From: Treponema sp.
GTDB taxonomy: Bacteria; Spirochaetota; Spirochaetia; Treponematales; Breznakiellaceae
Direction of reading: 5' to 3'
Assembly (NCBI GenBank): GCA_009785215.1
Contig: WQWU01000006.1
Coordinates: forward strand, 1 to 57,073
DNA: 57,073 bases
Made by a program: the position numbers and the translations under genes. Below, in pieces: positions 9,860 to 29,044 of the stretch. The notes beneath the pieces are model-generated. The model was not told the DNA's origin. It ran no database searches and was given only the letters and a program-made list of their open reading frames with translations. Numbering within the stretch: position 1 is the first letter of the stretch; each line of letters opens with the position of its first letter.

Positions 9860-9869
9860 GAGTTATTAA

Positions 9870-10355: not shown

Positions 10356-10374
10356 CTAATTAACAGGAATTAAA

Positions 10375-11463: not shown

Positions 11464-11471
11464 GAGAGAAT

Positions 11472-12317: not shown

Positions 12318-12646
12318 TTACAGGTGAAGCTCAAGATTTAAAAGAATTGATAATTGATTATGATTATAATTTTAGCTGGAGATATTTATCAATGTATGTT
12401 GTAAAAAAATTAGGAATAGCAGGGGCGTCAAGATATATTAAATATATTCCTCTTGAAATTGAGAAATTTGTAGAACAATTTGATTTGGATTTCTATGAAA
12501 AATACGATATAAACGCTTTAAAAAATATACCGCTGGACTTTTCAGAATATTTTTTAAATTGTTTGGAGAAAGCAGGAGTACAACTTTATAATGACAAAGA
12601 TTATGAAGAAAGAAGTAAAGTTTTAGAATATTTAGGATATAAATAA
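12287..12646 (+). CDS. C-terminal part of the PP-loop protein (separate or frameshift product)
   Basis: This 119-codon frame overlaps the end of the PP-loop gene in -1 phase. It starts MAFRIPIHEIITGEAQDLKE, which looks like a continuation of an asparagine-synthetase-like domain more than an independent start. Its ATG lies at the end of the A-run and has only a weak upstream GACGGA. The length sum with the first frame (about 391 aa) would give a complete PP-loop enzyme with N- and C-terminal domains. It could be made by programmed frameshift, by internal start, or be split by an artefact. Confidence 0.55.
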   Translation: MAFRIPIHEIITGEAQDLKELIIDYDYNFSWRYLSMYVVKKLGIAGASRYIKYIPLEIEKFVEQFDLDFYEKYDINALKNIPLDFSEYFLNCLEKAGVQLYNDKDYEERSKVLEYLGYK

Positions 12647-12658
12647 AAGGAATAAATT

Positions 12659-13405: not shown

Positions 13406-13429
13406 AATAAAAAAAGGATTTAAAAAAAA

Positions 13430-14473: not shown

Positions 14474-14481
14474 AAACTTTT

Positions 14482-14548
14482 AAACGCCAAGCAACTTAAT
14501 CGCAACAGCCTCCTTGCTTTTCATTATTGCTTGGCGTTTTTATTTTAA
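14482..14548 (+). terminator. Terminator after the capsid gene
   Basis: AAACGCCAAGCAA (14482-14494) pairs perfectly with TTGCTTGGCGTTT (14527-14539) across a 32-base loop, followed by TTATTTTA. Partial read-through would still allow tail expression. The large loop is unusual. Confidence 0.7.
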
Positions 14549-14557
14549 CTAAATATT

Positions 14558-14914
14558 ATGATAGTAACAGTAGAACAATTTCAAAAATATTCAAATGTAT
14601 TTACAGATAATATTGAATTACAAGAGTCATACTTAAAATCATCTCAAATTATTGTAGCGGATTACTTAGGTTACAACCCCGAAGAATATCTATTTAACTC
14701 AAAGACCTGCCAACTGGAAAAAATAACTGAAATTCCCGAAATAATTAAAATCACGATTATGAGAATTGCTTCGCTATTACAAAGCGAGTCAGACTCCAAT
14801 ATTGGGGTTACTTCAAAATATTTTGGAGACAGTGGAAGCAGAACTTTTATTAATTATACGAATTTTGACAAATATTTACTTCAAGTAAGCAATTACAGGT
14901 TAATACGGATTTAA
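14558..14914 (+). CDS. Head-tail connector protein (gp6-like)
   Basis: This 118-aa helical protein starts MIVTVEQFQKYSNVF, with an ESYLKSSQIIVADYLGYNP segment. This is the pattern of gp6-like connector proteins that extend the portal ring. It follows the capsid gene, as in other HK97-type phages. There is no clear ribosome site, only TAACTAAATATT before the ATG. Assignment is mainly from position and helical pattern. Confidence 0.65.
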   Translation: MIVTVEQFQKYSNVFTDNIELQESYLKSSQIIVADYLGYNPEEYLFNSKTCQLEKITEIPEIIKITIMRIASLLQSESDSNIGVTSKYFGDSGSRTFINYTNFDKYLLQVSNYRLIRI

Positions 14915-14916
14915 TA

Positions 14917-15378
14917 ATGCTATCTGCACAAATAGACTCTAAAGCGTTTGAAAATAAATTGAGAGTTTTCTCATCAGGCTTGGGAAATATATTTACAGAA
15001 TTATTAAATACTGTTGGCGAAAAAATGACTCAAGAAGCGAAATCATCCGCACCCAGAAGAACGGGAAAATTGGCAAGTTCAATTAATTTTATTTTTTATG
15101 ACGATAACAAAGCGGCATTTACAACGAAAAAAAATATTAATAAATCAAATATTTGGTATTCAAATATCAGGGAGCATGGGGCAAATATTGAAGCAAAAAA
15201 CAAAGAATATTTGATTTTCAAAATTAACGGAGAATGGAAAAAAGTTAAATCAGTAAGAACACGCCCTCAGCCGTTTATGAAGCCTGTTTGGGAGAATTAT
15301 TTCGGCGGCGGAAATTCAAGAGGTTATAAAGAATTAGCAAACGCATTGTTGCAAAAAATGAATGAGGAATTAAAATAA
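14917..15378 (+). CDS. HK97 gp10-like neck/tail completion protein
   Basis: This 153-aa protein contains SSAPRRTGKLASSINF and, near the C-terminus, RTRPQPFMKPVWENY. Both are characteristic of the HK97-gp10_like family, which completes the head-tail joint. It follows the connector by two bases and its stop overlaps the next ATG, giving coupled translation. Confidence 0.8.
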   Translation: MLSAQIDSKAFENKLRVFSSGLGNIFTELLNTVGEKMTQEAKSSAPRRTGKLASSINFIFYDDNKAAFTTKKNINKSNIWYSNIREHGANIEAKNKEYLIFKINGEWKKVKSVRTRPQPFMKPVWENYFGGGNSRGYKELANALLQKMNEELK

Positions 15379-15812
15379 TGATTAATTTTAAAGAACAGCA
15401 AGATATAATCGTCAATTATATTAATGAAAATTACGAAAGTTATTTAAAACAATATAATATTAACCAGCCAAAAATTACTACGGATTATATAGACTTTGAC
15501 AAATATAAAAATGATTTTATTTGTTATGTGGAGTTTGATAACACTACTTTTCCCGCAACTGACAGATTTAATGATGATTGTTCAATTGTTGAAAAACTAT
15601 TAATAAATATATTTTTAGTATTCAGGAATGACACTCCAGCCAACTTAAATGAAAAAATGCTTAATGCTGCGTCTGCTTTTTTTGAAATGATTAGAGAAAA
15701 AAGAATAGTTTTGACAGTGAATATAAATAAAATTGATTTCTTCAAGTATATAGAGGGCACTAATAATATTGTTAGTTCTAAATTGAACTTAGAGTTAAGT
15801 TTGGAAATATAA
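15378..15812 (+). CDS. Tail terminator/neck protein candidate
   Basis: This 144-aa protein shares its ATG with the stop of the gp10-like gene. Order (connector, gp10-like, this gene, tail tube) matches the tail-terminator slot in siphovirus maps. Sequence features are a CYVEFDNTTFPATDRF segment and a C-terminal beta-rich stretch ending LNLELSLEI. No specific family motif is certain; the call is from gene order. Confidence 0.55.
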   Translation: MINFKEQQDIIVNYINENYESYLKQYNINQPKITTDYIDFDKYKNDFICYVEFDNTTFPATDRFNDDCSIVEKLLINIFLVFRNDTPANLNEKMLNAASAFFEMIREKRIVLTVNINKIDFFKYIEGTNNIVSSKLNLELSLEI

Positions 15813-15821
15813 CTAATTAAT

Positions 15822-15995
15822 ATGAATAGTAAAGGAAATATATTTTTTGCTACTGATTACGCAAAAAAGAATTATAAAGAAAAAAAGAAAATTAAGAAAA
15901 ATAATTGCCCGTCTTGTGAAATAAAAATCCCAAAAATTGTTGTGGAAAGCACTTATTTAGAAGATGAGATTAGAGATGAAGATTTAAAAAACTAA
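15822..15995 (+). CDS. Small phage protein with CxxC, 57 aa
   Basis: The 57-aa open frame starts at ATG 15822, which has no good ribosome site. It is basic in its first half, with NNCPSCEIKIPK in the middle, and acidic at the end. The single CPSC pair could bind metal with a partner or as a dimer. It lies in the ten-gene string of tail genes in the same direction, which supports it as real. The family is not recognised. Confidence 0.4.
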   Translation: MNSKGNIFFATDYAKKNYKEKKKIKKNNCPSCEIKIPKIVVESTYLEDEIRDEDLKN

Positions 15996-16007
15996 TAGGA
16001 GAGTTAA

Positions 16008-16685
16008 ATGAAAATTACAGGAAGTAAAGCTCAAGTATTTATTGACAGTTTCAATGATACTTCGATTGTTAATGGTACAGGAACAAATACTACGGAAGCC
16101 AGACAAAAATATTTTGTTATTGATAAAGCCGAAGAAAGTAATATTCCAGTTGTAAAAGGAACATTTTTTATTGCACCGCAAATTGGCGGTTCAGCAAATC
16201 AAATAATGTTGAAAGAAGGAGACAGGCTTTTCAAAATTAATGAGGAAAGATTTTGTAAAACAAATGCATCGTTTGAGTTCAGTTTTGGCTCTGTAGATGT
16301 AGGCGATGACTGCGACCCGGGAGCTACAATTTCAGATGGTATTTTATCGTTAACAGGAAGTTTGGCTGGTTTATTCAGATACGATGATGAAACCCAAGAC
16401 TTTGACTGTGTTACCGATATAATTGTTAACCGTTTCTTGGATATTGTTGAAGATAAAGGTGATGGTCAATATGAGTTATTCCCAAGAACAGATAACCAAA
16501 TCTACCTTTTAACGCTGCTTAATTCAGGCGGTAAAGCAGGGCAAACTGAAAATTGGCTTTTTGCTCCAATAAATATTAATTCTATGTCAATGAGTTTGGG
16601 AAACACTGACGCTCAAAACAAAGATTTAAGTTTTAGCAAAGGCGAAGGAAAACCAATAATTTATAAAATTCCAGTAGCAGCATAA
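16008..16685 (+). CDS. Major tail tube protein
   Basis: This 225-aa beta-rich protein sits directly before the tail-chaperone frameshift pair, the standard place for the siphovirus tail tube gene. It contains SFEFSFGSVDVGDDCDPGAT and an acidic, glycine-rich middle, in keeping with tube proteins. The ribosome site is AGGAG before ATG 16008. Family identity is inferred from order and length. Confidence 0.7.
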   Translation: MKITGSKAQVFIDSFNDTSIVNGTGTNTTEARQKYFVIDKAEESNIPVVKGTFFIAPQIGGSANQIMLKEGDRLFKINEERFCKTNASFEFSFGSVDVGDDCDPGATISDGILSLTGSLAGLFRYDDETQDFDCVTDIIVNRFLDIVEDKGDGQYELFPRTDNQIYLLTLLNSGGKAGQTENWLFAPININSMSMSLGNTDAQNKDLSFSKGEGKPIIYKIPVAA

Positions 16686-16704
16686 ATAATTCAGGAGGCA
16701 ATTT

Positions 16705-17148
16705 ATGGCAATATTAAGAAGTATTTATCAAAAAGATAAAGAATATATTTTTAAGTCTTTCGATAATAATAAAAATGAAAATCCGGCAAAAGTAATATTT
16801 AAAAGATTTCCGTTTTCGGATGAGTCTTTTCCAGTAGCAAATCAAAAAAGTATATTAGAGTCGCCTATAGCAAAAGGATTTGATAATTCTCAAAAATCAA
16901 GAGAGCAATTAGTAGAACATATTATCGGAGTAATGATAGATAATATTTCCGCAAATAGAATTAATTTTGAATTATTTATAAGAGAATGTATAGAAGGATT
17001 TGAACAGCTTGTTTATAACGATAAAGAAATAAAAACAGTTTCGGATTTTTTAGAATTACCCCAATCTGCGATACAAAAAATTGCGTTGGAATTATATTTA
17101 TATTCAAGAACAGAAGACGAGTTTACTACAGAAGAAAAAAAAATTTAA
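16705..17148 (+). CDS. Tail assembly chaperone (G-like)
   Basis: This 147-aa helical protein lies between tail tube and tape measure. Such chaperones coat the tape measure before tube assembly. A fraction of ribosomes should shift at A_AAA_AAA (17136-17142) to make a longer G-T form. The ribosome site is AGGAGG before ATG 16705. The zero-frame product ends EEKKI just after the slippery site, as expected of this gene pair. Confidence 0.8.
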   Translation: MAILRSIYQKDKEYIFKSFDNNKNENPAKVIFKRFPFSDESFPVANQKSILESPIAKGFDNSQKSREQLVEHIIGVMIDNISANRINFELFIRECIEGFEQLVYNDKEIKTVSDFLELPQSAIQKIALELYLYSRTEDEFTTEEKKI

Positions 17149-17196
17149 AAATAGCATATAAATTACACCTCATCGGGTACAGGAAACTCGATGAGG
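17136..17196 (+). promoter_or_regulatory. Programmed -1 frameshift site with hairpin
   Basis: Zero-frame codons GAA AAA AAA ATT TAA contain the slippery A_AAA_AAA (17136-17142), four bases before the zero-frame stop. CCTCATCG (17168-17175) pairs with CGATGAGG (17189-17196), forming a hairpin about 25 bases downstream. Position, frame and structure match tail-chaperone frameshifting in other long-tailed phages. Confidence 0.8.
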
Positions 17197-17459
17197 ATAA
17201 TATCCCATCAGGATATAAAGTAACTACGCCGTCAGACCCATATCCGGTTAAAATATTCGGCGAAGAAAAATCAATCCCAGATAATAAAATTGGAAAATAC
17301 TTAAATAAAGAATTTAATTATTATTTAAATATTTACGAAAACAATAAATTATTTGGATTACCTTATAAAAATTGGATTGATATGCCTAAATGGTTAATTG
17401 ACTTGCATAAAATGTTTTCAAAAATAGAAGTTGAATATGAAAATAATAAGAGTTATTAA
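17142..17459 (+). CDS. Tail assembly chaperone, T-like frameshift extension
   Basis: The -1 frame stays open from the slippery site to TAA 17457-17459 and adds about 105 residues (NLKIAYKLHLIGYRKLDED at the start). It has no ribosome site or good start codon of its own. The joined product would be about 251 aa. In the family the T part contacts the tail tube while the G part binds the tape measure. Confidence 0.75.
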   Translation, partial: NLKIAYKLHLIGYRKLDEDNIPSGYKVTTPSDPYPVKIFGEEKSIPDNKIGKYLNKEFNYYLNIYENNKLFGLPYKNWIDMPKWLIDLHKMFSKIEVEYENNKSY

Positions 17460-17481
17460 CTAATTTAAAAAAGGAATATTA

Positions 17482-20337
17482 ATGTCTGATTTAACATTGC
17501 GAATTAACGCAGATTACGAAAAAGCACAAAAAGCATTTACAGAATTAGCAAACACATCAGAGGAAACCCGACAGAAAATTGAAAAGTTTTCAGATAGTTT
17601 TCAAACTAAACAGGTTGACTCCTTTATAGATAAACAAAAATTATTACAAACTTCATTAACAGGAACTCGAGGCGAAACTGTTGCAATGCAACAGGCTTCT
17701 AATAATTATCAAAAAGAAATTGAAAGATTAATTAAATCCGGTTTATCTCCCCAATCGGAAGCCGTTCAACGGTTAGTGCAAGAACAGCAAAAACTAAAAG
17801 ATAAAATCAAAGAAGCTGTTGAAGCTCAAAAAAATCAAGAAAAAATTATGAAAGCGGCGGCTGAAGCCACTACTTTATGTTATCAGGCTATAGCCGCTTC
17901 TGCGGCGGCATTATTATTAATGACGCAAAGAACAGCAGAACTTGGAGATGAGCTTGCTAAAACCAGTAGAAGAATTGGAATATCGGTAGAAGGATTACAG
18001 GAATTAGATTATGCTGCCAAACAAAGCGGAGTTAAAGATTTTAGAACCCATTTAGACAGATTAAGCAAAACAATGGGCGATGTAAAAAACGATGCAGGCT
18101 CTCTAACAAAATATTTAAAAGAAAATGACAGGCAATTATTAGGACAGCTTAAAAATGTAAAATCAAATGAAGAAGCATTTATGCTGTTAATGGACTCTGT
18201 AGGCAGAGCACCTGATGAATTTACTAAAGCAAAATTAGCAACAGAATATTTTGGAAAATCCGGCAGGGATTTAATTTTAATGGCAAATGAAGGGGCTGGC
18301 GGTATTGCCGAATTAAGAGAGGAAGCGAGGAAATTCGGAGTAATGTCCGAAGAAGCAGCCCGAAAATCAGAGGAATTTTTAGACTCGCAAACAAGATTAA
18401 AATCCGCTTTAGGCGGTGTAGCGATAGAATTATCAGAAAAATTAATGCCCGGTCTTACAGATGTAATAAATAAAGTAGCGGATTTTATAGCCGGAGTTGA
18501 TGATTGGGAAACTGTTTTACTAATTGCAGGAACTGCTTTAGTTTCTCTTACCGCAGGACTTACAACATTTTTATTAGTATCAAAAGGACACGCAATAATT
18601 ACAGCGTTAGCCGGAGCTATTAAATTATTAATGACGGCTCTTACTGGTCCCGCTGGATTGGCTGGTTTAGCAATAACAGGACTTGTAGCTGGAATAACCG
18701 CTTTAGTCGCTATTGACGCTTCACAGGCTAAACAGGGAGAAAAAATAGCTGCTAACTTGGTTGACCAAAAAAATAAAGCGGACTCTTTAATGAGAAGCTA
18801 CGCCGGATTAAATGAAGATAAAATTGCTGACGCAAGACTTACAAAAGAATTAATTGGTTTATATCCAGAATTATCAGATGTAATAAAAGATAATGAATTA
18901 ACAATCAGAGAACTTAGACAGGCTTATGAACAGGCACAAGGCGAAAGAGTAAAAGGAGAAGCCCAAGTTTTCATTGACAGGATGAAAGCAGAATATGACG
19001 TTATTCAAAACGCAATGAATGCTTTTAACAGAGAAAGAGCAAACGCAGGATTAGCCGCTGTTGATTGGGAAACTTTTGCTGCAAACAGTGGCAGGGTTAC
19101 TCGTGAATTAAGAAATTTTGAAAGGTTTAGGAATAACGCAAACGATATATTGGCAACAATTGGTTTGGAAGTTGACGTATCAAATAATTTTGGATTTATG
19201 GAAACCTTTGAAAGAAGGTCAGAAAATTTAAACTCTGAATTGCAAAGACAAATAATTGAAAGCAATAAAACAATATCGCAAAGATTATCTGAAATTGAAC
19301 TTACCGCCACTCAAAAAATGAATGACAGAATTAACCAAACAAAATCATTTTTAAAATCAAGGGCTGATTTAGAAAGAACAGAAGGCGAAGCAAGAATACA
19401 ATCAATACAAAATGAATATCAAAGAATATTAGCCAGCGGAAAATTACATGGTGATGATTTAATCGCTTTAGAAAGGGCGGTATCTGAAAGTATAAAAGAA
19501 ATCAGAGAAGATTTAGCAAAACAGGAAATAATAGATAATGAAGAATTAGAAAAACTTTTGAGCGAAAGAGTAACACTATTTAAAAATTCATTAAATAATA
19601 TTGAATTATCAGAAAATCAAGCGCAAAGCGAATTAATAAATCAGGCTGTTTCATACTTTCAACAAAGAGCAGAATTAGAGTCAGAAAACCTAGACGAAAG
19701 AATAGCATTTATTCAACAGCAAAAAGAAGAATTATTAGCATTATATGAAGAAGGCTCTTTAGAAAGAATTGCTATTGAAAAAGCGGCTGACGAAGCGATA
19801 TTAAAAAATAAAAGAGATTTTGCCAACAGTGAAAGACAATTATTAGAAGCAAGATTAAACGCATTTATGGATTTTACAGGTGGTATAGGAGCATTATTAG
19901 CATTAGGCGCTGAAAAAAATAAGGCTGCTGCTATTGCAGGAAGGGCAATCGCTTCTTTTGAAGCAGGAATTAATTCTTATTTGGCATTTACAAAAGCCCT
20001 CAATGACCCGACTCCAATGCCTACAGCGTTGAGGGCTGCACAAGCCACTGGTATTTTAATGTCAGGTTTGGCACAACAAATAAAAATTAATTCTGCTCCG
20101 TTGCCTTCCGCTGAAACTGGCGGCAGATTTATAGTCCCTAATTCTACTGGTGTTGACGGAACTTTAATGAAATTAAATAAAGGAGAAGTTGCGGAAATTA
20201 CTCCAAGAGGAATGACAGGACAATCTGAAAGTTTTAATTTTAATTTATTAGTTGACGGCAAAGTATTTTCTGAAATCATAAATAAACAAGCAAGAGCCGG
20301 AGAGCTTCACACATTGCAATTAGCGGGGAATTTATAA
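17482..20337 (+). CDS. Tape measure protein
   Basis: This 951-aa protein is the longest in the phage; its length sets tail length. Residues 1-130 are coiled-coil and Gln/Lys rich. Residues about 130-300 contain RRIGISVEGLQELDYAAKQ, a phrase common in tape measures. Hydrophobic segments lie around residues 350-410 (LIAGTALVSLTAGLTTFLL, then GLAGLAITGLVAGITALVA). Long helices follow. The C-terminus is rich in small residues and contains a PSAETGGRFIVPNSTG segment typical of the family's end. It follows the chaperone pair. Confidence 0.9.
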   Translation: MSDLTLRINADYEKAQKAFTELANTSEETRQKIEKFSDSFQTKQVDSFIDKQKLLQTSLTGTRGETVAMQQASNNYQKEIERLIKSGLSPQSEAVQRLVQEQQKLKDKIKEAVEAQKNQEKIMKAAAEATTLCYQAIAASAAALLLMTQRTAELGDELAKTSRRIGISVEGLQELDYAAKQSGVKDFRTHLDRLSKTMGDVKNDAGSLTKYLKENDRQLLGQLKNVKSNEEAFMLLMDSVGRAPDEFTKAKLATEYFGKSGRDLILMANEGAGGIAELREEARKFGVMSEEAARKSEEFLDSQTRLKSALGGVAIELSEKLMPGLTDVINKVADFIAGVDDWETVLLIAGTALVSLTAGLTTFLLVSKGHAIITALAGAIKLLMTALTGPAGLAGLAITGLVAGITALVAIDASQAKQGEKIAANLVDQKNKADSLMRSYAGLNEDKIADARLTKELIGLYPELSDVIKDNELTIRELRQAYEQAQGERVKGEAQVFIDRMKAEYDVIQNAMNAFNRERANAGLAAVDWETFAANSGRVTRELRNFERFRNNANDILATIGLEVDVSNNFGFMETFERRSENLNSELQRQIIESNKTISQRLSEIELTATQKMNDRINQTKSFLKSRADLERTEGEARIQSIQNEYQRILASGKLHGDDLIALERAVSESIKEIREDLAKQEIIDNEELEKLLSERVTLFKNSLNNIELSENQAQSELINQAVSYFQQRAELESENLDERIAFIQQQKEELLALYEEGSLERIAIEKAADEAILKNKRDFANSERQLLEARLNAFMDFTGGIGALLALGAEKNKAAAIAGRAIASFEAGINSYLAFTKALNDPTPMPTALRAAQATGILMSGLAQQIKINSAPLPSAETGGRFIVPNSTGVDGTLMKLNKGEVAEITPRGMTGQSESFNFNLLVDGKVFSEIINKQARAGELHTLQLAGNL

Positions 20338-20981
20338 TGAGAATTATTTTTAACGATATAATACAGTTTTCTAATGCGAATGAAAATTTAAAAACACCAA
20401 TGCTGTCGGATGTATTTAATAATCAAATAACTTTTACAATTTCACTGGATAAAATCAGGGAAATAGACTCTATAGGAATTGGTAATACTAACGGAACGTA
20501 TTTTATAATTAATGGTATAAATATAGATTTTACCGAAAACGGTTTATATTATTTAAATACAAAATTAAATACTTCTGAATTAATTATTAACACTAACGCC
20601 ACTTATATAGGAAGATTAGCCGCAGGTATTGGAGTTAAAATACCTACATCAATAGCGAAAGAACCAGCGTTTTGTTCTACAGCAGAACCTAGAGTTACAT
20701 TATCAGGGCAAATAATTTCAGGAATAGGCGGTTATAATTATAAAACAATTTCTTTAGACAGCAGATATAAAATTAATGAATATATAATGAACGAAATTAA
20801 ATACGGTTATAAATATATCGGATTAGGATATCCGTTTTTTATTGATTTATCAGACGAAAGTTATAAACTGCCTTTTGTTAAATTATATGCAACGGAAGCA
20901 AATCAAAGAAGAATGAGTTTTGAAAGCGGAATAAGAAAATATTTATTTTCAAGACGCTGGCAATTTGAGGAGAGATTTTAG
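20337..20981 (+). CDS. Distal tail protein candidate
   Basis: This 214-aa beta-rich protein starts at ATG 20337, overlapping the tape-measure stop. In siphoviruses the gene after the tape measure usually encodes the distal tail protein that joins tube and baseplate. The C-terminal part (YKYIGLGYPFFIDLSDE) fits a beta-sandwich. No named motif is certain; the assignment is from order. The stop TAG shares its G with the next GTG start. Confidence 0.55.
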   Translation: MRIIFNDIIQFSNANENLKTPMLSDVFNNQITFTISLDKIREIDSIGIGNTNGTYFIINGINIDFTENGLYYLNTKLNTSELIINTNATYIGRLAAGIGVKIPTSIAKEPAFCSTAEPRVTLSGQIISGIGGYNYKTISLDSRYKINEYIMNEIKYGYKYIGLGYPFFIDLSDESYKLPFVKLYATEANQRRMSFESGIRKYLFSRRWQFEERF

Positions 20982-22780
20982 TGTATAATTTTTTAGCGGA
21001 AATTTCTAAAAAAATCGACAAAGAAATACTGCCAACTCCATATAATTATTATGATAAAACGTCTAATTTATATTATATTGATATGGCTGAACACCCTAAA
21101 TCTACTTATTGGAGAAATTGGGGTGGTTGGTACGATTATTTTGTAGGAACACAACTTTCAATATATTATGACGGAAGATTTTTACTGCCTGTTAATTCTT
21201 TAGAAGATGTAGCAAGGACAAATTATTCTATATATATAAAAGATAAAGAAGTTCAACTAATTGACGGCGGTTCTGTTTCAGGAACAAATATAAATATAAT
21301 AGATAATGGAAATGCTTTCACTGTTTATTTTGAAAATGTTTTTGATGGAGATGAAGCGTATATAAACACAAATAAACTTGCAATATTTAATATTCCAAAT
21401 CATCCTTGGTTAGTGCCTTATGAAAAATTAGAATATAATGAATTACTGCCGTTTTTAACCACTACTTTAAATCCAAATAATCCATCTAATAATATTCTGA
21501 GAAAGGTAAACAGCAAAATTAGATTTGACGCTCCTAATTTTAATATTAAACTATCAGATAATATTGCCGGAATTACTTTAAATCAGGAGTTTTCTGTAAT
21601 AATGTATAATGATGACGGATATTTTGATGATGAGATAGATTGGAATTTATTTAATACGCCAATTTATATTAGAAAATCAATTGTTCCAAATCCAAAATAC
21701 TATAATTTTAAATTAATAAATACAGGAATAATCAGCAACTTAAGCATTTCATTTGATAGAATTCAAATAAACGCTAGCGACAAATTGCGTGCAATGAATA
21801 TGCCTGTTTGCGAATTAATTACAAATGGTAATGAAAAACTTCAATATATTGATATTAGTGATAAATCTTACGGAAAAAATATACCTATCATTTATGGAAA
21901 GAAAAATATTAAATTGCAGGAATTAAACGAACTGGAAGATGACAGGGCTTTATTTGTTGGAGTAGAATATATTAATCAAATATCAAATATTAAAGACAAA
22001 GACGAAAATATTATTTCTAATTCTGATGTTTATATTGAAAATAATATTATTATATCAGCCCCTAGTATCGTAGAAACCGCTGATATTAATGGTTATCTAA
22101 ATAATAAAATCGGTGAAATAATAATAGATTTAATATTTAAAAAAGCGGAAATACCTTTTAATTCCACGTTTTGGAATATTGAAGAAGTAAACAGATATAT
22201 TTCTTCTTGTGCTAGAATAAATACAATTATTTCCGGCGGAGATGTTAGAAAAACTATACAGGATATTTTGAAAAATGATTTAGCGTATTTTATACAGCAG
22301 TCTGACGGTAGATTTACAATTAGGAAATATGGCTGGCATTATAAAACTCATCATATTAAACCAGAAATGATAACAAAACGACCTGAAAAGAATTGGGATA
22401 ATTCTCATAATAATTTTTTCACTTCCTGTATTATTAATTATATTGACGATAATTTAATAAATCAATTATTTCTATATAATGAAAACGAAAGAGAATTAGA
22501 AAATAAATATAGGAAAACAGTGCAAAAAACTTTTGATACGGAATTAAGAACCGTTACTGACGCAAAAAATCTTGCTGTATTACTATCTAAAAGATTTTCC
22601 GCAATGCCACAAACTCTAAAAGTATCAGTAGGCGTTGACACTTCGCAATTTGAATTATTAGATACAGTTGAATTAAACGCAGAAATAAATAATAGGAAGT
22701 TTAATAATACAAGCACTTATTTTATAAAAGAAATAAATCCTGCACAGGATGTTTTAGTTTTAGAACAAATAAAATACTAA
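20981..22780 (+). CDS. Baseplate/tail hub protein candidate
   Basis: This 599-aa protein has a GTG start at 20981 and a GAGGAG ribosome site inside the previous gene. It is beta-rich and Asn/Ile rich, without a recognised enzymatic motif. Its order after the distal-tail gene and its size fit a tail-associated hub protein. The C-terminal third contains RRTVTDAKNLAVLLSKRF-like helical text followed by beta strands, as in Tal/hub proteins. No peptidase motif for cell-wall penetration was seen. Confidence 0.5.
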   Translation: MYNFLAEISKKIDKEILPTPYNYYDKTSNLYYIDMAEHPKSTYWRNWGGWYDYFVGTQLSIYYDGRFLLPVNSLEDVARTNYSIYIKDKEVQLIDGGSVSGTNINIIDNGNAFTVYFENVFDGDEAYINTNKLAIFNIPNHPWLVPYEKLEYNELLPFLTTTLNPNNPSNNILRKVNSKIRFDAPNFNIKLSDNIAGITLNQEFSVIMYNDDGYFDDEIDWNLFNTPIYIRKSIVPNPKYYNFKLINTGIISNLSISFDRIQINASDKLRAMNMPVCELITNGNEKLQYIDISDKSYGKNIPIIYGKKNIKLQELNELEDDRALFVGVEYINQISNIKDKDENIISNSDVYIENNIIISAPSIVETADINGYLNNKIGEIIIDLIFKKAEIPFNSTFWNIEEVNRYISSCARINTIISGGDVRKTIQDILKNDLAYFIQQSDGRFTIRKYGWHYKTHHIKPEMITKRPEKNWDNSHNNFFTSCIINYIDDNLINQLFLYNENERELENKYRKTVQKTFDTELRTVTDAKNLAVLLSKRFSAMPQTLKVSVGVDTSQFELLDTVELNAEINNRKFNNTSTYFIKEINPAQDVLVLEQIKY

Positions 22781-22798
22781 ATTTAAAAAGGATAAAAA

Positions 22799-23866
22799 AT
22801 GGGATTAATAAGAGTACCAAATCCTGATAATATACCGGAAGCGGTTACTACAGGATATCAAAGACAAAATACAAATATATTTGTAATACAAACCGGATTA
22901 GATACAACTTCGCCTTATGAAAACGGAAATAATATTATTATTCCTGCTGGCGGAATTATAGAAACAAATGGCGTAATGTATAAAATTGAAACGCCTGTTA
23001 CATTAACACGAAACTCATCTCAAATTAATATCGCTCTTTGGATAGAAGTAGAAGCCAGTATAGACGGCTCAACCGCTAATTTAATATTAGTAACCAGACC
23101 CGGAATATGGAATTATGCGAAAAATGGTTTTTACAGAAATAATAATAGAAGAACGTTAAATTGGGTTTCAACTGGAGATTTAGCGTCAGCTCCTACTATT
23201 GGTGCAGTTTATCAAAGTCCTACTTCAAAAAATATATATCAAGTAAGTTTACAAAAAGGGTGGTATTATGCCAGAATGTCTTCGGGAGCCGGAGGCGGCA
23301 ACGGCGGAAATACAACAGCCGTAATTCCGGCGGCGGTTGGAGCAGGTGGCGTTGTAAGTGCAGCACCAGAAGAACAATTTGTTTTTTTTAATATTAATGA
23401 TGAGCCTATAAAAATTAAAATCGGCGGAAGCGGACAAAACGGACAGGCTGGTGAAAATTCTACTTCAAACCAAGTTTTACGAGGTGGAGGCGGTGCTGGT
23501 GGCGGTGGCGAAGAAACAATTCTCGAATTAAGAAATAAATTATTTTCTACAAAAAGAATTCCGGGCGGAATAGGCGGTAAAGGGCACTCTAGCACTAATC
23601 CAAATAGTGGTGGAAATGGTGGGTGTGATGGAACGCCTGTACAAGATGGAATGAGTTTTTTTGGTCATCAAAGCGGTACAAATTATTCTGCACAAGGCGG
23701 AAGGGGCGGTTTGAATAATGGCGGGGGCGGTGGTTCTGGTAATTTATTTATACAGAATGGAACTGCAAGAGATGGTACTGCTGGCGGTAACGGTGGAACA
23801 AACGGCTGGAATATGCCAAATGGTTCTAACGGCGGTTATTGCAATATTTTTTCAATTACAAATTAA
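22799..23866 (+). CDS. Glycine-rich tail tip / receptor-binding protein candidate
   Basis: This 355-aa protein has an ordinary beta-rich N-terminus (residues 1-155). From about residue 160 to the end it holds repeated glycine tracts: SGAGGGNGGN, RGGGGAGGGGEE, GGIGGKGHSS and NNGGGGGSGN. Polyglycine-rich lattices of this kind form the receptor-binding tips of some phage fibres, for example the gp38-type adhesins of T4-like phages. It is the last large tail gene, as expected for an adhesin. Homology to gp38 is not claimed, only similarity in composition. Confidence 0.6.
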   Translation: MGLIRVPNPDNIPEAVTTGYQRQNTNIFVIQTGLDTTSPYENGNNIIIPAGGIIETNGVMYKIETPVTLTRNSSQINIALWIEVEASIDGSTANLILVTRPGIWNYAKNGFYRNNNRRTLNWVSTGDLASAPTIGAVYQSPTSKNIYQVSLQKGWYYARMSSGAGGGNGGNTTAVIPAAVGAGGVVSAAPEEQFVFFNINDEPIKIKIGGSGQNGQAGENSTSNQVLRGGGGAGGGGEETILELRNKLFSTKRIPGGIGGKGHSSTNPNSGGNGGCDGTPVQDGMSFFGHQSGTNYSAQGGRGGLNNGGGGGSGNLFIQNGTARDGTAGGNGGTNGWNMPNGSNGGYCNIFSITN

Positions 23867-23876
23867 GGAAATATTT

Positions 23877-24032
23877 ATGAAATTTATGTATAATAAAAAA
23901 ACACTTGAAGGAAAATATTTTTATGATAGTGAAAATTATGAAGGTTTTACAGAAAAATATCCAATAGACTCGGAGCATATATTTAATGAAGAATTAGATG
24001 ATTGGGTATTACCGGAAATTAATCTTGATTAA
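23877..24032 (+). CDS. Small acidic phage protein, 51 aa
   Basis: ATG 23877 follows AAGGAAA just after the adhesin stop. The 51-aa product is acidic and aromatic (ENYEGFTEKYPIDSEHIF in the middle). It could be a tail-fibre accessory or chaperone, given its place after the tip gene. Its last 14 bases overlap the convergent RadC-like gene. An open frame extends upstream to 23718 inside the adhesin gene, but the ribosome site supports the start used here. Confidence 0.55.
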   Translation: MKFMYNKKTLEGKYFYDSENYEGFTEKYPIDSEHIFNEELDDWVLPEINLD

Positions 24033-24441
24033 AATATCCGTTTTCTCTCATACTTAAGAAACTTTTTTTATTAAATATTAAATGGTCAATAATATGAAAA
24101 CCCATTATTTTACCGGCTGACTTTAATCTATCAGTAATTTCCTCATCAGGTGGAGAAATTGCTAATTGACCAGATGGGTGATTGTGGGCGAATATTAAAG
24201 CACAGGCGTTATCTTTTATTGCGTGATAATATACCTCTCTTGGGTGTACTATAGTTTGATTTGCTATTCCAATACTTACAATATGTATTCCAATTACTTT
24301 ATGCTCTCCGTCTAATGTAATTGTAAAAAATTGTTCTTTTCTGTTTTTTGCGTATCTTTGAAGAAAAAAATAAATATCTATAGGCTGCCTTATTTTAATT
24401 TCTTTTTTCAATTTTCTAGTAGAAATAATATTGTATGTCAT
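24019..24441 (-). CDS. RadC-family JAMM/MPN+ protein
   Basis: This 140-aa protein carries the JAMM metal site H86-x-H88-x7-S96-x2-D99 (HNHPSGQLAISPPD) and the upstream Glu46. RadC-like proteins are often carried by mobile elements; their biochemical role is unsettled, and the old link to DNA repair is doubtful. This copy holds only the JAMM domain and lacks the N-terminal helix-hairpin-helix region of full RadC (about 225 aa). It is the last gene of the minus-strand accessory operon and overlaps the convergent tail gene. Confidence 0.85.
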   Translation of the reverse strand: MTYNIISTRKLKKEIKIRQPIDIYFFLQRYAKNRKEQFFTITLDGEHKVIGIHIVSIGIANQTIVHPREVYYHAIKDNACALIFAHNHPSGQLAISPPDEEITDRLKSAGKIMGFHIIDHLIFNKKSFLSMRENGYFNQD

Positions 24442-24458
24442 ATAAACTCCAAAATAAA

Positions 24459-24484
24459 AAGGGTTGTCTTTTTTGACAACCCTT
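24459..24484 (-). terminator. Intergenic terminator hairpin
   Basis: GGGTTGTC (24461-24468) pairs with GACAACCC (24475-24482). On the minus strand the stem is followed by TTTTTATTTT, so it can stop the accessory-operon transcript before RadC, at least in part. Confidence 0.65.
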
Positions 24485-24495
24485 AATAATTAAAA

Positions 24496-24771
24496 TTACT
24501 TCAACTCATCATGTCTGCGAACGATTACAAGTTTATTATCAGAGAGAATAAATACAATTAAATTCTGCTGATAATTTGTTTTTCCGTCTTTCATAATTGC
24601 TTTTGTTGACGCAATTCTTTCTTTGAATTCTAATGTTCTGCCTTTTCCATTGATTATGTCTTCAATGGAATTGCAAAAGGTTATTTTATTAGAACCCGCT
24701 TTGCTGTACCAACTTAAATTGGTATTGTCGAGGGCTTTCACCTCTGCCGCTGTTATTTCTTTCTTTGCCAT
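24496..24771 (-). CDS. Hypothetical phage protein, 91 aa
   Basis: The ribosome site AGGAGG lies eight bases before ATG 24771. The product starts MAKKEITAAEVKALDNTNLS and has a beta-rich C-terminal half ending VRRHDELK. There is no signal peptide, membrane helix or metal motif. It precedes RadC in the accessory operon, separated by a hairpin. The family is not recognised. Confidence 0.6.
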   Translation of the reverse strand: MAKKEITAAEVKALDNTNLSWYSKAGSNKITFCNSIEDIINGKGRTLEFKERIASTKAIMKDGKTNYQQNLIVFILSDNKLVIVRRHDELK

Positions 24772-24816
24772 AAATAGCCTCCTAAAATATTATTACTTCA
24801 TACGAAGCAATTTTAA

Positions 24817-25200
24817 TTATGTTAATTGCTGATATTCAATATTTAACATCCAAATATCCGCAAACTCCGCTTGTTCTTTTTGCCGTTCTTTATTTGTAAT
24901 TATAAGTTCATAGTCAATAATTTCCCCGGAAAATTGTTCAAACCCTACCCAATCATTTCGGAAATAATACGGAAAATAATCTCCATTATCATTTTTCCAA
25001 AAAACCATTTCTGGGTCTCTCATTGCGTCTCCGTTTAATTTTCCATAATGGCAAAGTGATATTTCATTACGAACTATTATCTCAATAGTTAATGGAATAA
25101 AAGTTTCGTCATTATTTAATTTAAAATGATTTTTGTTTTTATACGCCATTTCCCAAAGTTTATCCAATATTATTTTGGATTTATTATTTACTGCTTTCAT
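24817..25200 (-). CDS. DUF6908-like phage/plasmid accessory protein
   Basis: This 127-aa protein contains IPLTIEIIV, LCHYGKLNGDAMRDPEMVFW and YFPYYFRNDWVGFEQF. The DPEMVFW and Tyr-rich pattern resembles the DUF6908 family of mobile-element proteins of unknown function; I judge this from memory. I chose ATG 25200, which has AAAGGAG just upstream, instead of the longer frame to 25236. Its 5' end overlaps the SSB-like gene by 17 bases, so they are coupled. Confidence 0.55.
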   Translation of the reverse strand: MKAVNNKSKIILDKLWEMAYKNKNHFKLNNDETFIPLTIEIIVRNEISLCHYGKLNGDAMRDPEMVFWKNDNGDYFPYYFRNDWVGFEQFSGEIIDYELIITNKERQKEQAEFADIWMLNIEYQQLT

Positions 25201-25474
25201 TTTTTCTCCTTTGTTTAATTTCAATATGCTCCGCATTGATTACAATGTTTTTACCAATGCTTTTTAATTTTCCAACAATTCTTAATTCAGAGCCTTTGTT
25301 TAATTTGTTATAAACCGAGTTTAATAAATTATTAAAATAAACTTCAATATAAATATTTTCTTCCTCTGGTTCATTCTCTTTGGTAAACGACTCTAAAACG
25401 AATTTTTTAGCAACATTAAATGTTGGTTCTCTATACACAATACCTTCGATTAAAACACTGTTTAAATGGTTCAT
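25184..25474 (-). CDS. SSB-like OB-fold protein
   Basis: This 96-aa protein starts MNHLNSVLIEGIVYREPTF, then has YIEVYFNNLLNSVYNKLNKG and ELRIVGKLKS. The order (N-V-x-L-x-G-x-V near the start, later 'KG-x-x-x-x-V-x-G-x-L') is that of a single-stranded DNA-binding OB fold. It is shorter than SSB (about 150-180 aa) and lacks the acidic C-terminal tail that recruits partners. The start 25474 is set by AAGGAG. It probably protects ssDNA in phage replication or recombination. Confidence 0.6.
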   Translation of the reverse strand: MNHLNSVLIEGIVYREPTFNVAKKFVLESFTKENEPEEENIYIEVYFNNLLNSVYNKLNKGSELRIVGKLKSIGKNIVINAEHIEIKQRRKNESSK

Positions 25475-25508
25475 TTTATTTCTCCTTATTCTTTCCAATA
25501 TTTTTTAA

Positions 25509-25530
25509 ATGGGAGTTTTTACACTCCCAT
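25509..25530. promoter_or_regulatory. Intergenic hairpin between minus-strand genes
   Basis: ATGGGAGT (25509-25516) pairs with ACTCCCAT (25523-25530) around a T-rich loop. No T-run follows on the minus strand, so it is not a classical terminator for this operon. It resembles the hairpin at 26035-26060 in place and GGGAG core. Confidence 0.5.
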
Positions 25531-25538
25531 TATTTTAA

Positions 25539-25790
25539 TTATTCAACTTCAACATCTGAGTCAGAATAATCTTCGTGTGATAATTGATTGGACTCTAAAG
25601 CGTGATTAATTAAAGCATTATCATCAATATTAATTTCAACATTCTTAGTTGCTGACCAATTAATATTATTTCCATCAATGTCGATTTCTATTTCCCAATC
25701 ATCATCAATTCCGTTTTCTTCTCTGATTAAATCTAAAACAGTTTCCATTTCAATATCACCGTTTCTTTTAAGTATTAAACTATAATCCAT
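25539..25790 (-). CDS. Acidic phage protein, 83 aa
   Basis: This strongly acidic protein is rich in Asp, Glu, Asn and Ile (DDDWEIEIDIDGNNIN in the middle, SDSDVEVE at the end). The ribosome site GGGAG precedes ATG 25790, and the start overlaps the upstream gene by 11 bases. Acidic small phage proteins sometimes mimic DNA or block host nucleases, but there is no specific motif here to show that. Confidence 0.55.
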   Translation of the reverse strand: MDYSLILKRNGDIEMETVLDLIREENGIDDDWEIEIDIDGNNINWSATKNVEINIDDNALINHALESNQLSHEDYSDSDVEVE

Positions 25791-26013
25791 AATTACTCCC
25801 TAATGCTTTAATAGCATCTTCATATTCCCACGCATAACACTTATTTAAAATATTTGCTGCTTGTGCTTGGTTAATTTTATTTTGCCTATAGGCATTTATA
25901 ATTGTTTTGTCTTTTAATGGCATTCTTTTCCAAAGTCCACAAAATTTCCAATCATCTGAATTAGACCAAGGTGTTTTATCATTAACTTCCGAAACTCTAC
26001 GATTATTATTCAT
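25780..26013 (-). CDS. Hypothetical phage protein, 77 aa
   Basis: The start 26013 is chosen for its AAGGAG, instead of a longer frame to 26052. The product begins MNNNRRVSEVNDKTPWSNSD and has a helical C-terminal half with NAYRQNKINQAQAANILNKC, which could be a helix-turn-helix. It may be a small DNA-binding regulator. The family is not recognised. Confidence 0.55.
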   Translation of the reverse strand: MNNNRRVSEVNDKTPWSNSDDWKFCGLWKRMPLKDKTIINAYRQNKINQAQAANILNKCYAWEYEDAIKALGSNYGL

Positions 26014-26034
26014 AATATTCTCCTTGTATTTTTT

Positions 26035-26060
26035 AAGCGGGAGATTTTTCACTCCCGCTT
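26035..26060. promoter_or_regulatory. Intergenic hairpin with T-run on the plus strand
   Basis: AAGCGGGAG (26035-26043) pairs with CTCCCGCTT (26052-26060), followed on the plus strand by TTTTGTTT. On the plus strand it would be a terminator, guarding the operon against antisense transcription. On the minus strand it stands between two genes just before a ribosome site. Confidence 0.55.
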
Positions 26061-26066
26061 TTTTGT

Positions 26067-26267
26067 TTATTCTACTTCGCAGTAGTCCATCATAATTTGC
26101 AATGCCTCATCATAAGACTTTGCCGTTGTTGTGATTTTGTCATACATTTCTTTTGCTAATTCTGGCTGACCAAAATCCCTTAATGCTTTCGAACAAATTG
26201 CCATAAGGTTGTAGACGTTTCCGTTTTGTCCGACCAATTTAACAATTGGCTTTTTTCGATTTTCCAT
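26067..26267 (-). CDS. Hypothetical phage protein, 66 aa
   Basis: The start 26267 is set by AGGAGAGA just upstream; a longer frame to 26315 lacks that support. The product starts MENRKKPIVKLVGQNGNVYN and continues as helices (ALRDFGQPELAKEMYDKI). The pattern of a short beta strand followed by two helices is known from small phage and plasmid proteins of unknown function. It is the first gene of the minus-strand accessory operon. Confidence 0.6.
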   Translation of the reverse strand: MENRKKPIVKLVGQNGNVYNLMAICSKALRDFGQPELAKEMYDKITTTAKSYDEALQIMMDYCEVE

Positions 26268-26309
26268 AATTCTCTCTCCTAAAAATTGTATTTCGTTAAG
26301 TATAAAATG

Positions 26310-26356
26310 TTGCACCTAACGTTTGATATATAAAATATAATATACGTTAGGTGCAA
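26310..26356. promoter_or_regulatory. 13-bp inverted repeat upstream of the accessory operon
   Basis: TTGCACCTAACGT (26310-26322) and ACGTTAGGTGCAA (26344-26356) are perfect arms spaced by 21 AT-rich bases. The spacer holds a plus-strand TATAAT (26336-26341), and a minus-strand TATACT lies just downstream (26299-26304). The centre-to-centre distance of 34 bp would put two regulator subunits on nearly the same face of DNA. Apart from this site and the promoter at 26605, I see nothing in the 386-base gap to 26653. Confidence 0.55.
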
Positions 26357-26604
26357 TGTAAATAGTAAAGATAAAAATAATTTTAAAATAATTACTGTTA
26401 ATTTTAATTGTTTGAGGTTATCACAGGTTTAACTATCTGGCGAATTCTATATTTGGAATAATCTATTTAAAAGAAATTAAACTACAGGCTTCTGCACGCT
26501 TCTAAGACCTTAATTTTAACGAGTTTGGAACTATGGATTAAAGAGAAATGAAAAAAAAGTAAAAATAATTTATTTTTTTTTAAAAAAATCAGTAAAAATA
26601 GGTC

Positions 26605-26634
26605 TTGACAATAATTTAAAATTACTTTTATAAT
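26605..26634 (+). promoter_or_regulatory. Strong sigma70-type promoter
   Basis: TTGACA (26605-26610), an 18-base spacer and TATAAT (26629-26634) are perfect matches to the consensus. The expected transcript start near 26641 leaves a very short leader with AGGAG before ATG 26654. Confidence 0.8.
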
Positions 26635-26653
26635 TGTATTACAGGAGATTTTT

Positions 26654-26824
26654 ATGGTAGTTGATAAATCGACAGAATATTATTTAACCCATTCTATGGG
26701 GCTAACAAAAAAGCAAATTAAAGAAATGCTCCCCGGCGAAGTTGACAAACACTGCGAAGAAATAATCCGCAATAGAATTGACGCCCGGGGAATGGTTGCT
26801 CCAGAAGAAGAAGATAAAAATTAA
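26654..26824 (+). CDS. Small strongly promoted phage protein, 56 aa
   Basis: The 56-aa product starts MVVDKSTEYYLTHSMGLTKK, is helical and ends acidic. It has the best promoter of the prophage region and an AGGAG site. It lies between the accessory operon and the recombinase gene, overlapping the recombinase stop by four bases head-on. Read-through would make antisense RNA to the recombinase. Small genes beside large serine integrases can be directionality factors or immunity genes; this one has no recognised motif. Confidence 0.6.
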   Translation: MVVDKSTEYYLTHSMGLTKKQIKEMLPGEVDKHCEEIIRNRIDARGMVAPEEEDKN

Positions 26825-28764
26825 ATATCATCAATAAACGATATTACTTTATTAATATCTTTCAACAAATAATCAATTCCTAATTTTTGCAATCTTTTTT
26901 CCATAATTATTTTATCTTTAGTTTTTAAAAAATATTCTTTTATTCTGCGTTCTCCAATTCGCCGAGTAATTTCTCGGAGTATTAGTTTGTTTTCAATATC
27001 AAGGATTTCTATTTCAATATCATTTAATTCTTTTTGCGTATAATCTTTTGTTTTTGAAATCGGAGTATTAATAAACTTCTTAATATTGCTTTGATATTCT
27101 CCATCTTCATTTAACAGAGTATTTGAATTTAAAAAGTTTTTCATAAAATGCTCATCGTTTTTTAATTCCTCTATAAATAATTCCGGTAGTTTGTAATTTT
27201 CTTTAATATTAAAAATAAATAATAAATATCCTGTATCAATTAAAAGATAATAACCGAACAATTGGCATTTTTTTATTATTTTTAAGAGTGCGGTTCTTTT
27301 ATTTTCAATGCTTAATTTTTCAAAAAAACTGAGTATTAATTCTTTTGTATTGTAATAAGTTAATTCCATCTCATCTCTGGTCAATTCTTCTTTTAATTTG
27401 TTTAATTCAATATTTAATTTTGTGATAACAGAATTATTCACTTCAAGTTTTTGTTTTAATTCATTTTCTTTTATTAATGTAAGTTTTAACAAATCTTTAT
27501 CGCTAGAGTTTTCTTCATAAATATTCTGAAAATTGTTTATTTGTTTTTCAATTTTCCTGTTATTACTTTCAACAGAATTTATATTATCTTTAATTTTTGT
27601 TAAATTTAAATTATTTAATTTTTGATTTTCTTTCAGCAATTCTTTTGTATCATCAAAAACCAAATAATAATAAAAATAAAACGCTTCTACAAGATTATTA
27701 ATTATTTCCCTTCTGATAGATTTTGGTTTTTGCAAACAAGTTCTGGTCGGATTATGCGTATAATATTTATAATCATCTTTATCATTTACAGTATAATAAT
27801 GCTTGTTACAATACGGGCAATTAGTAATACCTGAGAAAATATCAGAACTTGCATTGCGTTTGTTTTTTTTATATACTTGCTTATTTTCAACAAGCATTTT
27901 AACGGAATTTATATAATCTTCAATTGAGATTATATTTACTGGATAATTTATAGAGGGCAGATAGTATTTTGGCTTTCCATTTTCCTGTTCATATAAAAAA
28001 TCAAAATTATTGATTTCTGATTTTTTAAATTTATTGCATAATTCTGCACCTTCGGTTGTTAATGAAAAACCAGTGTAATCAAAACTTGATAATATATTAC
28101 GATAATTTTTAAAAAGAACGCTTAACCGAGCATCTGTTTCATCATTGTGTAATTCCTTAACAATATTATTAATAGGTCTGCCTTTTAAAAAATATTCGAA
28201 AATATATTTTATATTTTCAATTTCTGATTGAACAGGCTCCCAGATAATAAATCTATCGTCTTTTCCTATCTGTTTATATCCATATTTTTTATGATATGAA
28301 CGCCTGCCTGTATTTATAGTTGATTTTATACCTCTTGTTGTTCTCCTTACAATTTTATTGCGTTCGTATTTTGACCATAAGTTTTTCATATCTTGGAAAA
28401 GTTCCGACTCAGGGTCGTTTAAATCAATTTCTTTTCCGCTATCATATAAAATTGCTTTATTTTCTATTAAAGTGAATTTTAATAAAAACCAAAAATCATT
28501 GCGGGACATTCGAGAATGCTCCCAAACCCATAATCTATCAATTCTTTTTTGTTCAATATCATCGAGTAGTTTTGTTAGACCTTGTAAATGTTTAAATGGA
28601 TTTTTTCTGTCATGAATTTTGTAACCAGATTTACCAATATCTTCATATACTTGGTATTGAAAACCTTGTGCATTACAAAACTTAATTCCTAACTCTTTTT
28701 GCTGTTCAATTGAAGTACCGTCTGTTTCAGCAGAAGTCCTAGCGTAAATTCCGCAAATTCCCAT
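26821..28764 (-). CDS. Large serine recombinase (phage integrase)
   Basis: This 647-aa integrase has an N-terminal resolvase domain (YARTS with nucleophile Ser11; DRLWVWEHSRMSRN), a recombinase domain, a zinc-ribbon region near residue 315 (CPYCNKHYY, later a Cys in RTCLQ) and a long Leu/Asn/Lys coiled-coil (about residues 370-450) that controls synapsis. Length and order match large serine integrases. It is the last gene before the host junction at about 28,840, the usual integrase position. The ribosome site is GGGAG. It is likely to cut within the VWEWCWD codons of the FGE-type target. Confidence 0.9.
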   Translation of the reverse strand: MGICGIYARTSAETDGTSIEQQKELGIKFCNAQGFQYQVYEDIGKSGYKIHDRKNPFKHLQGLTKLLDDIEQKRIDRLWVWEHSRMSRNDFWFLLKFTLIENKAILYDSGKEIDLNDPESELFQDMKNLWSKYERNKIVRRTTRGIKSTINTGRRSYHKKYGYKQIGKDDRFIIWEPVQSEIENIKYIFEYFLKGRPINNIVKELHNDETDARLSVLFKNYRNILSSFDYTGFSLTTEGAELCNKFKKSEINNFDFLYEQENGKPKYYLPSINYPVNIISIEDYINSVKMLVENKQVYKKNKRNASSDIFSGITNCPYCNKHYYTVNDKDDYKYYTHNPTRTCLQKPKSIRREIINNLVEAFYFYYYLVFDDTKELLKENQKLNNLNLTKIKDNINSVESNNRKIEKQINNFQNIYEENSSDKDLLKLTLIKENELKQKLEVNNSVITKLNIELNKLKEELTRDEMELTYYNTKELILSFFEKLSIENKRTALLKIIKKCQLFGYYLLIDTGYLLFIFNIKENYKLPELFIEELKNDEHFMKNFLNSNTLLNEDGEYQSNIKKFINTPISKTKDYTQKELNDIEIEILDIENKLILREITRRIGERRIKEYFLKTKDKIIMEKRLQKLGIDYLLKDINKVISFIDDI

Positions 28765-28779
28765 AAAAATCTCCCTGTT

Positions 28780-28794
28780 TCGTATTATATACGA
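28780..28794. promoter_or_regulatory. Palindrome upstream of the recombinase gene
   Basis: TCGTAT-TAT-ATACGA lies 16 bases upstream of the recombinase ATG, in its promoter/leader region. It could be an operator for the recombinase or part of the attachment region. Confidence 0.4.
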
Positions 28795-28834
28795 TTTGTT
28801 AATTTAAGTAAAGAAATTATATAATAGAGAGAAA

Positions 28835-28856
28835 AGCACCGTATGGGAGTGGTGCT
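28835..28856. other. Candidate attachment junction (attR)
   Basis: AGCACC (28835-28840) and GGTGCT (28851-28856) are inverted arms around ten bases. The left part is AT-rich phage DNA; the right part reads in frame as the VWEWCWD codons of a host gene. Large serine integrases act on short imperfect inverted repeats with a two-base core, so this is the best crossover candidate. The left junction is not in the window. Confidence 0.6.
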
Positions 28857-29044
28857 GGGATAGATATGGAGATTATCCGGTAGGAGCGCAAGCAAATCCA
28901 ACGGGGGCGGTCTCCGGCGAAGATCGCGTGGTACGTGGCGGATCATGGCTCAGTGGCGGTCAGGGTCTTCGTTCTGCTAATCGGGATGGGGTCGGTCCGT
29001 CGTACAAGACCGAATTTCTCGGCTTTCGGCTTGTTCGCCCTTGA
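28841..29044 (+). pseudogene. 3' end of a formylglycine-generating-enzyme/SUMF1-family gene
   Basis: Sixty-seven codons from GTA 28841 to TGA 29042-29044 encode VWEWCWDRYGDYP at the start, RVVRGGSWLSGG in the middle and FLGFRLVRP at the end. This is the conserved C-terminus of the FGE/SUMF1 family, whose fold resembles C-type lectins; many members are not true sulfatase-activating enzymes. The frame runs without start or ribosome site into phage DNA. The 5' part should lie beyond the left end of the prophage, so the gene is interrupted while the phage is resident. Confidence 0.85.

Follow-up and report, generated by a model that had tools for sequence, protein, structure and literature searches.

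A treponemal prophage that ends inside an FGE/SUMF1-family gene, and the repeated modules beside relatives of its serine integrase

In this work we have confirmed that a siphovirus-like prophage in a Treponema sp. genome stops exactly where the 3' part of an FGE/SUMF1 gene starts (Table 1). The window, meaning the whole stretch of 57,073 nucleotides that was analysed, is the complete contig C6, one of 54 in an assembly of 1.90 Mb at 75% completeness. It is probable that a temperate tailed phage was integrated here by its large serine integrase, into an attB lying within the G-N-V-W-E-W-C-W-D codons of the FGE gene. Judging from its sequence, the gene that was cut probably belongs to a family of variable proteins served by diversity-generating retroelements (DGRs). 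Moreover, the clade of the integrase mostly occupies targets built of repeated modules, namely FGE domains, BspA leucine-rich repeats (LRR) and integron attC-like repeats.

Table 1. Coordinates of the features in the window
Feature	Position	Strand	Basis
Prophage, left side incomplete	1..28840	.	Phage gene order with PHROG/Pfam matches, low GC
Probable insertion-sequence transposase gene start	1..95	-	Read by eye
Primase/helicase-like replication protein	1599..2942	+	PF19263, PF05272; phrog_1156
Terminase large subunit	6651..8369	+	PF20441/PF03354, phrog_9; 82% aa identity to sister phage
Portal protein	8418..9659	+	PF04860, phrog_12
Head maturation protease	12659..13405	+	phrog_80
Major head protein	13430..14473	+	phrog_10
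Tail tape measure protein	17482..20337	+	phrog_8125
Large serine integrase, 647 aa	26821..28764	-	PF00239 Resolvase 75 bits; phrog_95 integrase 154 bits
Phage arm of attachment site and integrase promoter region	28765..28841	.	Junctions compared by eye
FGE/SUMF1-domain gene, 3' part, start codon absent	28841..29044	+	PF03781 185-255
Probable crossover dinucleotide TA	28842..28843	.	Analogy with G013:C52 and other junctions
Probable DGR variable region of FGE fragment	28904..29040	+	Gapless alignment to foreign G012 template repeat

The prophage and its junction with the FGE gene

The GC content per kb is 0.225-0.388 over 1-28,000, 0.337 in 28,001-29,000 and 0.33-0.48 beyond, and in addition to the genes of Table 1 the region from 1 to ~28,840 encodes an HNH endonuclease and a DNA-repair protein. 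A phage tail-type protein (10375-11463) carries an Mtd N-terminal domain (PF18454), and the ORF at 11445-12317, which has no Pfam match, contains an SGGMDS motif that we take to recall a PP-loop ATP pyrophosphatase. In the integrase the N-terminal resolvase domain PF00239 spans residues 6-154 and no further Pfam model was matched; Y7, R9 and S11 are invariant in an alignment with two relatives from the sister genome G013, S11 being the predicted catalytic serine. When IMG/VR was searched with the terminase, primase and capsid, relatives were found; a search with ORF 321-1046 and one with the exact attachment-arm pattern gave no match there. A sister phage, V19 (IMG/VR 3300002450_000019), is collinear in pieces with window positions 6268-28752 at 67-85% DNA identity. 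Its protease is 79%, its major head protein 74%, its portal 69%, its integrase 45% and one tail protein (20981-22780) 30% identical to those of the window phage, so that by these identities the integrase is less conserved than most of the proteins compared, though not the least. Among known phages the terminase matched 2710 records, every one below 60% identity, and the integrase weakly matched 39, the best at ~26% over half its length.

The FGE codons run in frame from GTA TGG at 28841 to the stop at 29044, with 28841-29041 translating as VWEWCWDRYGDYPVGAQANPTGAVSGEDRVVRGGSWLSGGQGLRSANRDGVGPSYKTEFLGFRLVRP followed by the stop codon. The PF03781 FGE-sulfatase match scores 43.7 bits, over a cut-off of 23.3, and takes in only positions 185-255 of the 255-position profile; the fragment was recovered as well by a six-frame search of the genome (39.7 bits). 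Going upstream in this frame, a stop is reached whose end is 33 bp away from the junction, and from there to VWEW no ATG, GTG or TTG occurs. The closest sister gene found, on contig C41 of genome G012, is 84% identical to the fragment as DNA over 143 bp; downstream of 28841 the two share 56 of 63 bases, against 13 of 60 on the upstream side, a value close to chance expectation. By analogy with other junctions, crossover probably took place at the TA of 28842-28843, within a formal range of 28840 to ~28852. The phage arm holds a TATATAATT-type motif that was found also at the integrase-side end of an element in G013:C52 (see below). As the integrase starts 79 bp from the junction, and as this distance lies between 54 and 85 bp across six junctions (the window and five relatives, the value for L043, where no TA was seen, being approximate), the position is that of an attachment site and not of a chance neighbour. 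The sequence-only reading is partly supported: the prophage with a large serine integrase and an attachment site in conserved FGE codons that it had proposed is borne out by the junction, the domain and the integrase matches. It had also pointed to AGCACC and GGTGCT flanking the switch point. Both are present, at 28835-28840 and 28851-28856, but a functional role was rejected, since GGTGCT belongs to the FGE gene's own TGG-TGC-TGG codons (it occurs in 16 of the 20 sites listed) and AGCACC is absent from the junctions of the relatives; on these sequences the pair is probably coincidental.

A fragmented assembly of 54 contigs at 75% completeness, and a gene family present in many copies, where assemblers err, might suggest a faulty join, within a repeated gene, of a phage contig and a chromosomal one. 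We regard such a chimera as very improbable, as the junction falls where an attachment site would be expected, the layout recurs at other targets in relatives from other assemblies, the sister phage included, and no other copy in the window's own genome matches the FGE side as DNA at E 1e-8.

The left end of the prophage lies outside the contig. The reverse strand of 1..95 reads MGKRKRYTAEEKIKIL after a ribosome-binding-like stretch, which we take to resemble an IS3-type OrfA, and this probable transposase start is a likely reason for the contig break within the phage. A second copy of it was not found in the assembly, and the first 220 bases matched only themselves in the own genome, with no overlap. 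No orphan FGE 5' half was found in the 75%-complete assembly. Among the phage relatives, L071 (all ORFs), L159 and L164 (the first 6.5 kb of each, with the right end of L164 as well) showed no FGE gene at a left end; L160 entered this comparison as DNA only, L163 was left out, and coverage of L164 began 3.5 kb into its contig.

In the mechanism that we propose, the serine integrase would recombine the phage attP with an attB in a treponemal FGE/C-type-lectin-fold gene, leaving the 3' part with its variable region beside the integrase and, presumably, the matching 5' half at the absent left end. Insertion should inactivate the target copy. The promoter, the start and most of the FGE domain would lie apart from the variable region, and excision would, by analogy, rejoin the gene in frame. 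One could argue instead that the phage merely came to lie beside a pseudogene fragment, one that had decayed beforehand or was produced by a later deletion, and that excision would restore nothing. The own genome does have another broken copy, C23:28796 (L002 1474-1824, G000:C23), truncated at both ends, apparently by deletion, which indicates that FGE copies decay in this genome, and the missing 5' half could be read in the same way. Nevertheless, the FGE homology begins exactly at the integrase-proximal junction (56/63 against 13/60 bases), the junction lies as far from the integrase start as in the relatives, and the FGE 3' end stays open to its stop, so that we hold this explanation to be improbable. 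An FGE fragment lacking an adjoining phage was not found in related strains.

Beyond the FGE fragment the region is chromosomal, its first gene coding for a substrate-binding protein (PF12849). Two such genes (29415-30224 and 32159-32962, both PF12849) are 88% identical and less than 3 kb apart, and a third, 74% identical, lies on C9. A search of 38 sister genomes provided 29 sibling pstS-like loci, and a scan of these for GNVWEW- or RGGSW-type motifs (up to 1.5 kb upstream, three being short) found none, so an empty site was not found by synteny. Isolated GFRL, GFRI or GFRV tetrapeptides occur in several of these loci, the other FGE motifs being absent.

The FGE family and its link to diversity-generating retroelements

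FGE matches were found in 38 of 39 genomes of the genus, with up to 53 in one, in agreement with the earlier suggestion of a many-copy target family. Across 46 FGE domains the 20-bp segment at the junction is the 7th most conserved of 589, and a degenerate form of the 20-mer is present in 17 of these 46. The pattern GTATGGGARTGGTGYTGGGA occurs at 55 places in 23 of 39 genomes, never more than six per genome, and the reversed control gave none; some sister genomes thus have several near-identical sites, in line with the several insertion sites per genome that had been thought possible. The own assembly has a single exact copy of the 20-mer, the one at the junction; variants of it stand in its three remaining FGE matches.

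Treponema denticola has DGRs, and their targets can be remote from the retroelement core (PMC4891356). In the closest FGE relative, G012:C41, a variable region (VR; L156 1237-1373) is followed 349 bp further by a template-like copy (TR; 1586-1722) rich in AAC codons. All 18 differences between the two fall at template adenines, of which there are 35 in 137 positions (Fisher p ~3e-13), and the gene looks like a DGR target. When window positions 28904-29040 were compared with this foreign template, they differed at 24 of 35 adenines and at 19 of 102 other positions (p ~1e-7), the pattern that a DGR variable region would be expected to give. With a nearest relative of this kind, the gene cut by the prophage is probably one for a hypervariable protein, its variable region lying ~60 bp downstream of the cut. 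The connection with variable lectin-fold proteins, which the sequence-only reading had raised, is now stronger, the nearest relative having a VR/TR pair.

The retroelement itself was looked for as well. An Asn-rich template repeat was not found in the window or in the stretches of the own genome that were scanned. A three-motif scan for reverse transcriptase, applied to the window and to a first set of loci, gave none; C23 (1-20000 and 22000-37562) and C30 (1-32000) hold four YxDD ORFs, none of them reverse transcriptase-like by eye, and reading the initial 5 kb of G012:C41 by eye showed no reverse transcriptase.

Relatives of the integrase and their targets

Single-sequence scans of GTDB contigs and IMG/VR gave no relatives of the integrase; these were found with a three-row alignment of the window integrase and the two from G013, to which it is 44% (C82) and 36% (C52) identical. 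Members of the clade were found in spirochaete genomes, on a single IMG/VR phage contig and in a bin labelled Tannerella (L044), the last of which reflects either a cross-phylum transfer or a mis-binned contig. The N-terminal flank is readable in nine clade integrases, a count that leaves out L011 and L074, which are integrase fragments without an N-terminus, as well as 24 further loci (L046-L069) matching at 20-30% identity. Six of the nine abut a repeated module: an FGE gene in the window, an LRR gene in C52 and C82, and an attC-like repeat in V19, L042 and L043. Two are ambiguous, L044 having an apparently truncated D5-like primase gene ~390 bp away and L045 an integron-integrase-like gene (TIGR02249 at 208 bits, below its cut-off of 265; NF040815 at 222 against 220), and beside L073 nothing was recognised. 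Ends of the attC-like type were not found in L044, L045 (3.8 kb) or L073. As a rough contrast, the ORF lists around three more distant serine integrases (L007, L008 and L010) were read by eye and showed neither FGE nor LRR proteins; attC-like ends were absent there. Judged from these flanks, sister phages with diverged integrases occupy different repeated targets, and elements of the clade may favour multi-copy targets.

The most complete case is found in G013:C52, where an 8.1 kb element (L031 ~4848-12952), with the serine integrase at one end, splits a BspA-type LRR gene into a 5' half (12948-14456) and a 3' half (4338-4871), both matching PF13306. The element ends read ...GTAACGA-TA-AGTTAAAG and ...CCGTAACC-TA-CCCGACAGC, and the uninterrupted repeats of the gene read ACGATACCCGACAGC. 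The two ends have only TA in common, which fits the expectation for a serine integrase, and the reading frames of the gene halves agree when read off the two ends. Among the genes of the element are a tyrosine-recombinase-like one and one for an HTH regulator; a phage structural gene was not seen in its ORF list (six proteins or flanks were searched), and it is a different kind of element from the window phage. Its architecture shows only that gene restoration is compatible with it. A split gene that could be rejoined, as the sequence-only reading had envisaged for the window, was in this way seen for the C52 relative and not for the window phage. A sibling of this element appears to be carried by L042. 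The second G013 integrase, that of C82, has its start 54 bp away from the 3' part of another LRR gene (PF13306, 33 bits against 27.7); there is no other LRR motif across the 11.7 kb contig and the 5' half is missing, so the insertion looks decayed or rearranged. We also considered the LRR target as a genome-wide multi-copy site and rejected it, as the 20-mer has five places in G013 at two mismatches or fewer, all within the interrupted gene; the copies of this target are thus repeats inside a single gene.

The third kind of target consists of repeats whose ends are conserved (GCACATAAC / GTTATGC type), which form a strong hairpin and lie beside cassette-like ORFs. One intact repeat (L070:360-540) was folded and gave a hairpin z of -11.5. 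Rfam gave no match on L070 or L043, so attC is here a call from motif and fold, and the repeats of L043 and G437 were assigned as attC-like from their letters alone. In L070, L042 and L043 the repeats flank cassette-like ORFs (APH-like, SIR2-like and DUF4238) and are interrupted by serine-integrase elements, and the V19 integrase sits inside such a repeat. The L042 target repeat has five matches in its own genome (G437), the target included; the C2 copy is uninterrupted across the L042 site, and the C9 and C128 copies diverge before it. Read against the C2 copy and the intact repeat of the V19 contig, the junctions of L042 and V19 fall at one and the same short motif, CGC-TA-C.

It could be proposed that these integrases are simply of low specificity, and that FGE, LRR and attC-like targets reflect what is abundant in treponemes. 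Multi-targeting serine recombinases are known (PMC10083194); the recognised targets are very different in sequence, with little in common beyond TA, and the C82 and V19 integrases, 56% identical, use LRR and attC-like DNA respectively. Against this, the L042 and L043 integrases (65% identical) lie in the same attC-like repeat, at different points, and the CGCTAC shared by the V19 and L042 junctions suggests some real sequence preference. We consider low specificity possible, though on the whole somewhat unlikely. Returning to a clade that mostly occupies repeated modules, a plausible benefit would be that an attB is always at hand and that the loss of one copy is cheap for the host. The fuller reading, in which the clade is specialised in repeated modules and the window prophage works reversibly as a switch for a surface-protein gene diversified by a DGR, is offered tentatively and we deem it unlikely. 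If it were true, the integrated prophage would silence one variant, and excision would return the gene to expression and diversification.

Comparison with known systems

Prophages usually occupy single-copy conserved sites, and known examples of active lysogeny include sporulation or competence genes. If the present clade does use repeated modules, there would be several landing sites per genome with insertion cheap for the host, and lysogeny would meet the machinery that varies surface proteins; its integrases would be natural candidates for defined multi-copy integration tools. Insertion sequences of the IS1111-attC group and group IIC introns insert at integron attC sites. The present elements share with them the use of attC as a repeated landing site, here by large serine integrases, of which one belongs to a tailed phage.

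Integration of prophages within genes by large serine recombinases is known (PMC10083194; see also PMC10747680). The window prophage resembles these in having a serine integrase beside the attachment site, a probable short crossover and a host gene that is probably split, but differs in its target, a many-copy lectin-fold gene that is probably DGR-diversified, and in that excision would here be assumed by analogy. As with the multi-targeting large serine recombinases (PMC10083194), related integrases use several unrelated target genes; unlike there, most of the recognised targets are repeated modules, with one site known per integrase. A search of the open-licence literature found no report of such a prophage target or of the repeated-module pattern. 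The TvpA-type variable proteins of the T. denticola DGR likewise combine a lectin-fold-type protein with a 3' variable region; there, no association of the DGR locus with known phage genes is reported (PMC4891356), whereas the window prophage interrupts what is probably a gene of this type. What appears to be new, therefore, is the use as target of a many-copy, probably DGR-diversified lectin-fold gene by a prophage whose integrase has relatives that use LRR and attC-like repeats.
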